Of a stretch of DNA of 64,000 bases, positions 58,604-60,618 are shown one piece after another. The stretch lies in NCBI RefSeq assembly GCF_002252565.1, contig NZ_NPML01000007.1, positions 248,001-312,000 of the forward strand. Direction: 5' to 3'. Source of the DNA: Petroclostridium xylanilyticum. Lineage in GTDB: Bacteria > Bacillota > Clostridia > SK-Y3. The translations under genes and the position numbers were made by a program. How positions within the stretch are numbered: position 1 is the first letter of the stretch; each line of letters opens with the position of its first letter. The notes beneath the pieces are model-generated. The model did not search any database. It was not told where the DNA came from and saw only the letters and a list, made by a program, of their open reading frames with translations.

Positions 58604-60169
58604 CTATCTTGCATACTCAATTGCCCTGGTTTCCCTTATGACATTTACCTTAATTTGACCAGGATATTCCAGTTCACTTTCTATTTTTTTAACAATATCT
58701 CTAGCTATTAATACAGCATTTTCATCACTTACATCTTCAGGCTTAACCATAATTCTTATTTCTCTACCTGCTTGAATAGCAAAAGATTTATCTACACCAT
58801 TAAATGAATTAGCAATTTCCTCAAGTTTTTCAAGTCTCTTTATATAAGTTTCAAGATTCTCCCGTCTAGCTCCAGGTCTTGCAGCTGAAATTGTATCAGC
58901 CGCCTGGACAAGGCAAGCAATAATGGTCTCAGGTTGGACATCGCCGTGATGAGCCATAATGGCATGTATAACTTCTTGACTTTCCCTGTACTTTTTAGCA
59001 ATATCAGCGCCAATCGTTACATGGGAACCTTCAACCTCATGGTCTACAGCCTTCCCAATATCATGAAGTAATCCTGCCCTCTTTGCAATATTAACATCTG
59101 CCCCCAGCTCTCCTGCCATAATACCGGCTAGGTGCGCCACTTCAATAGAATGCCTTAGTACATTCTGACCATAGCTGGTCCTGAATTTCAATTTTCCCAG
59201 TAATTTTATTAACTCAGGATGCAAACCATGCACGCCTGTTTCAAAAGTCGCATGCTCACCTTCCTGCCTGATAGTATTTTCCACTTCTTTCCTGGACCGT
59301 TCAACAGTCTCTTCAATCCGCGCAGGATGAATACGACCGTCTATAATAAGCTTTTCCAGGGCTACGCGGGCAACTTCCCTTCTTATAGGATCAAAGCCTG
59401 ATAAAATTACTGCTTCAGGAGTATCATCAATAATTAAATCTATTCCGGTTAAGGTTTCCAGTGTCCTGATATTTCTTCCTTCTCTACCGATGATTCTTCC
59501 TTTCATTTCATCATTTGGTAAAGGTACAACTGACACTGTAGCTTCAGCTACATGATCTGCAGCACATTTTTGTATCGCCGCACTTATAATATCTTTAGCT
59601 TTTTTCTCAGCCTCTTCCTTAGTCTTAGCTTCAATGTCTTTAATCATGATTGCAGCTTCATGTTTAACCTCATTCTCTATATTTTTCAAAAGATAATTCT
59701 TTGCCTCTTCTACGGTCAGGCCAGATATTCTTTCCAGTTCTTCAAGCTGCTTTCTTTGAATTTCCAAAGTTTCTTCCTGCAGAGCTTGTATTTCCTTACT
59801 TTTTCTATTCAGCATATCTTCCTTTGCTTCAAGAGATTCAACTTTTCTGTCCAAAGTTTCTTCTTTTTGTTGAATTCTTCTCTCTTGACGCTGAAGTTCA
59901 TTTCTTCTTTCCTTTATTTCTCTGTCAAACTCGATTCTATTTTTATGAATCTCTTCTTTTGCTTCCAATAAAGCTTCTCTCTTCTTATTCTCAGCAGTCT
60001 TACAAGCATCACTGATAATTCGTTTCGCTTCTTCTTCTGCACTGCCTATCTCAGCTTCAGCAATCTTTTTTCTATATGCAATTCCAAAACGGAAAGCGAA
60101 TATACCCGAAAATATTGCTGCACCAAGTGCAACGGCAATTAATATGATTATTTCTCCAAATGTAATAAT
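58604..60169 (-). CDS. rny: Ribonuclease Y
   Basis: Rny is the membrane-anchored endonuclease that starts mRNA decay in Firmicutes. The protein has a single N-terminal helix ([21 protein letters not shown]), a coiled coil of ~150 residues, a KH domain ([22 protein letters not shown], near residue 220), and the HD domain ([31 protein letters not shown], near 345-375). The ending is RAIEYAR, with Rny-typical [12 protein letters not shown] before it. The strong AAGGGAGGTG (60182-60173) is followed at normal distance only by ATT codons (60169, 60166). The sole GTG (60175) overlaps the site, and a TTG (60190) precedes it. I tentatively start at the ATT. Confidence 0.92.
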
Positions 60170-60344
60170 GTGCACCTCCCTTATTATCAAAATAATTTCG
60201 GAAACTCACTCTTCTCTTGTCATTGAAGGTACAACGTCGCAGTCTTCTACTGCACTTTAACTTTACAACAGCAGGCTCGCCACGCTGCTGTAACTCCTTA
60301 CCATGACAAAAAAATATTCCATAAAATGGTTTCCAGATACCTTC

Positions 60345-60480
60345 TTGAACCTCCCACAACTAAAGCCGCAGGATTCCTAATTCATCGACTGCTTTGCAGT
60401 CTTCAAAGGCTTAACTTCGGGTAGTCCCTACCCTAGTTCGAGTCCTTAACTCTACTGAAGTCACGAGTGTGCGGACGCTA
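60345..60480 (-). ncRNA. Omega-RNA/right-end-like remnant of an IS200/IS605 tnpB element
   Basis: On the minus strand the segment runs from GCGTCCGCACACTCGTGAC through AAGGACTCGAAC, AGGGTAGGGACTACCCGAAG and GAAGACTGCAAAGCAGTCG to GGAATCCTGCGGCTTTAGTT, then GTGGGAGGTTCAA. This order matches, as I remember it, the 3' end of clostridial tnpB elements: the omega-RNA scaffold with the terminal hairpin and TTCAA end. The final stem (60353-60372) pairs fully with G-U allowed. No tnpB or tnpA coding sequence is present upstream; only a promoter. If transcribed, the bases after 60345 would take the guide position. Confidence 0.6.
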
Positions 60481-60589
60481 TTCATCAATAGCATTATCTT
60501 TCATTTTCTTCTATTAATGCAAAACTTTTCCTGAGGAACTTGCAAACTTAAACAAAATATATATATTTGGTGTATAAATATATATGATA

Positions 60590-60618
60590 ATTGTAAACTT
60601 TTTTAAAATTACTGTCAA
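60590..60618 (-). promoter_or_regulatory. Sigma-A promoter reading into the omega-RNA-like segment and rny
   Basis: Minus strand TTGACA, 17-nt spacer, TACAAT. No gene other than rny lies downstream; the leader to rny would be about 400 nt and would contain the tnpB-element remnant. Confidence 0.82.

Follow-up and report, generated by a model that had tools for sequence, protein, structure and literature searches.

The 5′ leader of rny, the gene for RNase Y, in Petroclostridium xylanilyticum contains a sequence that reads like the 3′ end of a tnpB unit and its guide RNA scaffold, with no tnpB beside it. What is such a sequence doing in front of an RNase gene? The original prediction, made from the letters alone, described an orphan right end with a promoter of its own and offered three options for it: a domesticated guide RNA, a cis-acting leader structure or just a scar. 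We analyzed the locus within a window of 64,000 nt, which is the whole stretch of DNA under study. On sequence comparison the segment, 139 nt long, is with high probability a non-autonomous derivative of an ISDra2-like IS200/IS605 element, in which the left end (LE, ∼48 nt) was fused to the right end (RE, ∼91 nt) with loss of the tnpB core, and which entered the rny 5′ UTR on the 3′ side of a TTGAT. This ends-only reading follows from the homology of both ends to tnpB-carrying elements, from a second near-identical copy behind a TTGAT and from the empty site in related genera.

Extent and parts of the element

The ends-only IS200/IS605 element occupies 139 nt of the minus strand (60483–60345 of the window) within the rny 5′ UTR, with the end of folD upstream and rny downstream. 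Read from 60488 to 60345, this strand gives TTGAT followed by the element itself, GAATAGCGTCCGCACACTCGTGACTTCAGTAGAGTTAAGGACTCGAACTAGGGTAGGG...GGGAGGTTCAA, whose TTCAA end is adjoined by the 3′ flank GAAGGTATC. Much of what had been described from the letters was confirmed: the stretch GCGTCCGCACAC...GGGAGGTTCAA on the minus strand, the terminal hairpin and the GGTTCAA end are all present within 60483–60345, the TTGACA-17-TACAAT promoter lies at 60618–60590 with rny downstream, and neither tnpB nor tnpA adjoins the element. No open reading frame of at least 60 amino acids is contained in the 139 nt; one merely overlaps the last bases of the element. The coordinates are collected in Table 1.

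Table 1. Features of the folD–rny region of P. xylanilyticum, in window coordinates
Feature	Position	Strand	Evidence and remarks
TTGAT target/TAM pentanucleotide	60484..60488	-	Directly 5′ of the element; same pentamer 5′ of the C19 copy and of the C18 left-end half copy, flanks different
Left end (LE), ∼48 nt, weakened hairpin	60436..60483	-	Alignment to two tnpB elements of Caloramator fervidus (LE of L059 and of L065)
Right end (RE), ∼91 nt	60345..60435	-	Alignment to the non-coding stretch right after Caloramator tnpB; also to plasmid sequence linked to tnpB (C. difficile, Helicobacter)
Terminal RE hairpin CCTGCGGC-TTTA-GTTGTGGG	60353..60372	-	Compared with Caloramator CCCGCGAC-TTTA-GTCGTGGG: three sites differ
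rny promoter TTGACA-17-TACAAT	60590..60618	-	Near-identical in four other genera whose folD–rny gap lacks the element
rny (RNase Y)	58604..60166	-	83–89% identical to rny of four relatives
Second insert, ∼135 nt, GGAAAC...GTTTCC ends, strong fold	60200..60334	-	Unrelated to the element; not present in four related genera; occurs once in the genome

The RE consists, in this order, of a AGGGTAGGGACTACCC stem, a variable stem, GAATC, the terminal hairpin and the GGTTCAA end, and alignment identifies it as the counterpart of the 3′ part of the TnpB reRNA scaffold. In ISDra2, too, a terminal hairpin is followed by a TTCAA-type end. At every site where the terminal hairpin differs from that of Caloramator a G-U pair is possible; these differences, being only three, are too few for arguing selection on the RNA. 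The LE hairpin is predicted at −9.2 kcal/mol, as compared to −24.6 and −27.3 kcal/mol in relatives. A comparison with RNA family models, which had been proposed as a check, gave no Rfam match above any family's cut-off in the segment, at gathering as well as at loose thresholds.

Comparison of both ends with tnpB-carrying elements

When the last 33 nt of the element were used to scan GTDB genomes, 15 loci were obtained. In Caloramator australicus and C. fervidus, tnpB ends ∼75 nt before the 33-nt pattern and the sequence between them, AGGGTAGGGACTACCCGAA..., is the same as in the window; the exception is L065, where the reading frame continues past the usual tnpB end point. Since the loci had been picked by the last 33 nt, we ran the right-end test on the remaining upstream part only: this part scored 29–32 when aligned with the right ends from Caloramator, whereas 1000 shuffles that preserved base composition alone and not dinucleotides reached at most 15–17. 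The resemblance to an IS605 right end is real.

Aligned with the left ends of the C. fervidus loci L059 and L065, the 5′ half of the element scored 34 and 31, respectively, with maxima of 16 and 15 for shuffles of the same kind. These left ends lie beyond tnpB, >1 kb upstream, and the match is independent of the 33-nt right-end pattern by which the loci were found. The stretch GCGTCCGCACAC, which had been taken for scaffold, therefore belongs to the left end. All in all, the Caloramator elements (L058, L059, L061, L063, L064, L065 and L070) have the RE AGGGTAGGGACTACCCGAA...GGGAGGTTCAA in common with the element at rny, and in L059 and L065 a near-identical LE start, CGTCCGCACACTCGTGACTT, was seen with TTGAT before it; unlike the element at rny, they contain tnpB within these ends, and their LE hairpin is strong.

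Plasmid BLAST searches returned weak, consistent right-end matches directly after or within annotated tnpB in C. difficile and Helicobacter. Compared as DNA, plasmids gave no match at 1e-5 and, at E up to 1, short right-end stretches only, none of them full-length; phages gave no match to the element. Viral contigs contained no match to the RE pattern and four to the LE–RE pattern, which are without features of the element and were read as chance. In a class-wide pattern scan an LE near an RE occurred in one out of 391 genomes, namely twice in the present one; no fused LE–RE element was found in the 390 other genomes of the class.

Copies of the element within the genome

A second full copy is located on contig C19 upstream of an ABC-transporter ATPase gene; the two are 99% identical over 144 nt aligned and have the identical weakened form of the LE hairpin. 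In addition, the genome contains two half copies: a right end that lies upstream of rpsL, and a left end situated between rplA and rplJ on contig C18. TTGAT precedes both full copies as well as the left-end half copy, TTCAA ends both full copies as well as the right-end half copy, and the sequences outside the copies differ from one another. On the other side of the copies no duplicate of the TTGAT target was found (three copies with differing flanks). A preceding TTGAT, the lack of a duplication and the differing flanks form the pattern expected when an element inserts on the 3′ side of TTGAT. The same pentanucleotide is target and TAM of ISDra2 from Deinococcus radiodurans, which inserts 3′ of it without target duplication (PMC8612924).

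The near-identity of the two full copies points to recent movement, which would have taken place as a single-stranded circle by means of a Y1 transposase acting in trans. The weakened left-end hairpin might hinder transposition, yet it is shared by both full copies. Y1 genes are present in the assembly; none was found with ends matching the element, and a search for an intact Y1 transposase with matching ends in the assembly (41 contigs, with gaps) found none. The sole small TnpA that is intact (L040) is part of an element whose ends are different. The parental element could sit in one of the gaps between the contigs.

The right-end and left-end half copies (L003 and L004, at 33.5 and 42.8 kb on contig C18) are situated ∼9 kb apart in the same rpl–rpo region, and the right-end half adjoins a AATTAACAATTAACAATG-type stretch.

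Promoter and leader of rny

We also located rny in four genera besides this one, all from the same family. In their folD–rny gaps the TTCTTGACAG...TTTACAAT promoter is kept nearly letter for letter and the element is absent. A promoter that is conserved where the element is absent must be rny's own and older than the insertion, rather than one belonging to the right end as had been proposed. The earlier account of the origin was correct in deriving the segment, including its right end, from a tnpB-type IS200/IS605 unit, but both the orphan status and the private promoter have to be given up: an LE is fused to the RE, downstream of a pre-existing promoter. The divergence of the leaders at this point, together with a second insert that comes next, hides the exact ancestral junction at rny. 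The borders of this second insert are a reading of the alignment; in phages, plasmids and viral contigs it had no match. The probable start codon of rny is AUU at 60166–60164 of the minus strand: in each of the five genera GGAGGTG is followed by an ATT at this same position, and the sole other shared in-frame candidate is a GTG inside the ribosome-binding site.

Could the insertion have been kept because its RNA structure alters the translation of rny or the stability of its mRNA? The element does lie between the rny promoter and start, in the 5′ UTR, and the whole leader folds better than shuffles (z = −3.49). However, the element alone is only modestly above shuffles (z = −1.63) and the strong fold of the leader is owed mostly to the second insert (z = −4.05 for 60190–60344); moreover, four relatives do without the element, and the same element is also found before the unrelated ABC-transporter gene. 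We consider such a cis-acting role unlikely. Most likely the element in the rny leader is a transcribed passenger: it would now be transcribed passively together with the rest of the leader and exert at most a minor effect in cis, owing to a longer and more structured leader.

An AT-rich stem-loop at ∼60553–60586 of the minus strand, at the expected transcription start of rny, is kept in five genera with 89.7% of cells paired; its covariation is barely above shuffles (27 of 500 shuffles reach it).

The question of a guide RNA

A domesticated guide RNA would consist of the transcribed right end working in trans with a TnpB, which might be nuclease-dead (TldR-like), and with GAAGGTATCTGGAAACC as the guide. 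The right end retains the stems and the GGTTCAA end of an reRNA scaffold, it sits downstream of a strong, conserved promoter, and ∼16 tnpB genes are present in the genome. Nevertheless, several results make this role very improbable. The scaffold kept in the element amounts to ∼91 nt, so that ∼25 nt, the 5′ part, of the 116-nt ISDra2 reRNA scaffold (PMC10097598) are missing. A tnpB with the same right end elsewhere in the genome, which the original prediction suggested looking for, was not among the resident genes with readable 3′ ends; the types seen there are TTCAC or ...ACGG. The nearest resident TnpB is only 49–52% identical to Caloramator TnpB and its own right end finishes in TTCAC. The candidate guide had also been proposed for a search next to a TAM: over the whole genome, allowing ≤3 mismatches over the TAM plus 16 nt, no TTGAT-flanked target of GAAGGTATCTGGAAACC was found, the matches within 3 mismatches being its own locus and one chance-like site with 3 mismatches and TGGAT in place of TTGAT. 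No tnpB-like gene adjoins the element as in a TldR-type setup, where a nuclease-dead TnpB lies beside the RNA. Finally, the element is absent from relatives, and its second copy would have an unrelated guide. Among the three options first offered, 'just a scar' comes close and the domesticated guide finds no support.

The TnpBs examined keep their RuvC motifs, apart from a 427-aa TnpB group of three copies (L010, L011 and L012) in the same genome: here no E-D/N-L alignment is obtained at the second RuvC motif, although the glutamate may lie a few residues further on.

A related idea, to which we assign very little probability, is that the miniature element, keeping most of the scaffold and borrowing host promoters, might load a TnpB in trans with guides against its own empty sites, by which a gene-less passenger would be preserved. 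If such elements were shown to feed guides to TnpB in trans, this would be a new mode of persistence for elements without genes. Hardly credible, finally, is an orphan right end left as a scar by a tnpA/tnpB deletion at the rny site: right-end homology and the lack of a nearby tnpB would fit, but a left end is present, and the near-identical LE–RE fusion at a second site with other flanks implies that the fusion predates the spread of the elements.

Relation to known elements

The ends-only derivative that we favor is a MITE-like element of a known kind. Palindrome-associated transposable elements (PATEs) are IS605-type ends-only derivatives of Haloquadratum walsbyi (PMC3119063), a PATE-like sequence has been reported in Halanaerobium hydrogeniformans (PMC7290912), and a transposase acting in trans is described as able to move ends-only IS605 elements (PMC3119063, PMC7290912). 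Like PATEs, the element at rny has a fused LE and RE of IS605 type, no genes and no terminal inverted repeats, and it occurs in several copies with different flanks and without visible target duplication. Unlike PATEs, it belongs to another host and parental group, measures 139 nt, keeps ∼91 nt of the RE including most of the reRNA scaffold region and has a weakened LE hairpin. ISDra2 differs from it in carrying tnpA and tnpB and in its working scaffold of ∼116 nt. What looks like a guide RNA scaffold within the leader of a gene can be the right half of an IS605 element that has lost its genes, and looking for both a matching left end and an empty site in relatives settles such cases.

In a related genus, the locus L055 (G002:C39:18968-18994) is a right-end-like scar with no detectable tnpB. 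Three loci from Oscillospiraceae MAGs (L062, L068 and L069) were considered as further miniatures of the present type and rejected, as no match to the element was seen in their upstream parts. They share its terminal IS605 hairpin and its GGTTCAA end, with no tnpB evident among the listed upstream open reading frames, and are possibly other gene-less derivatives.
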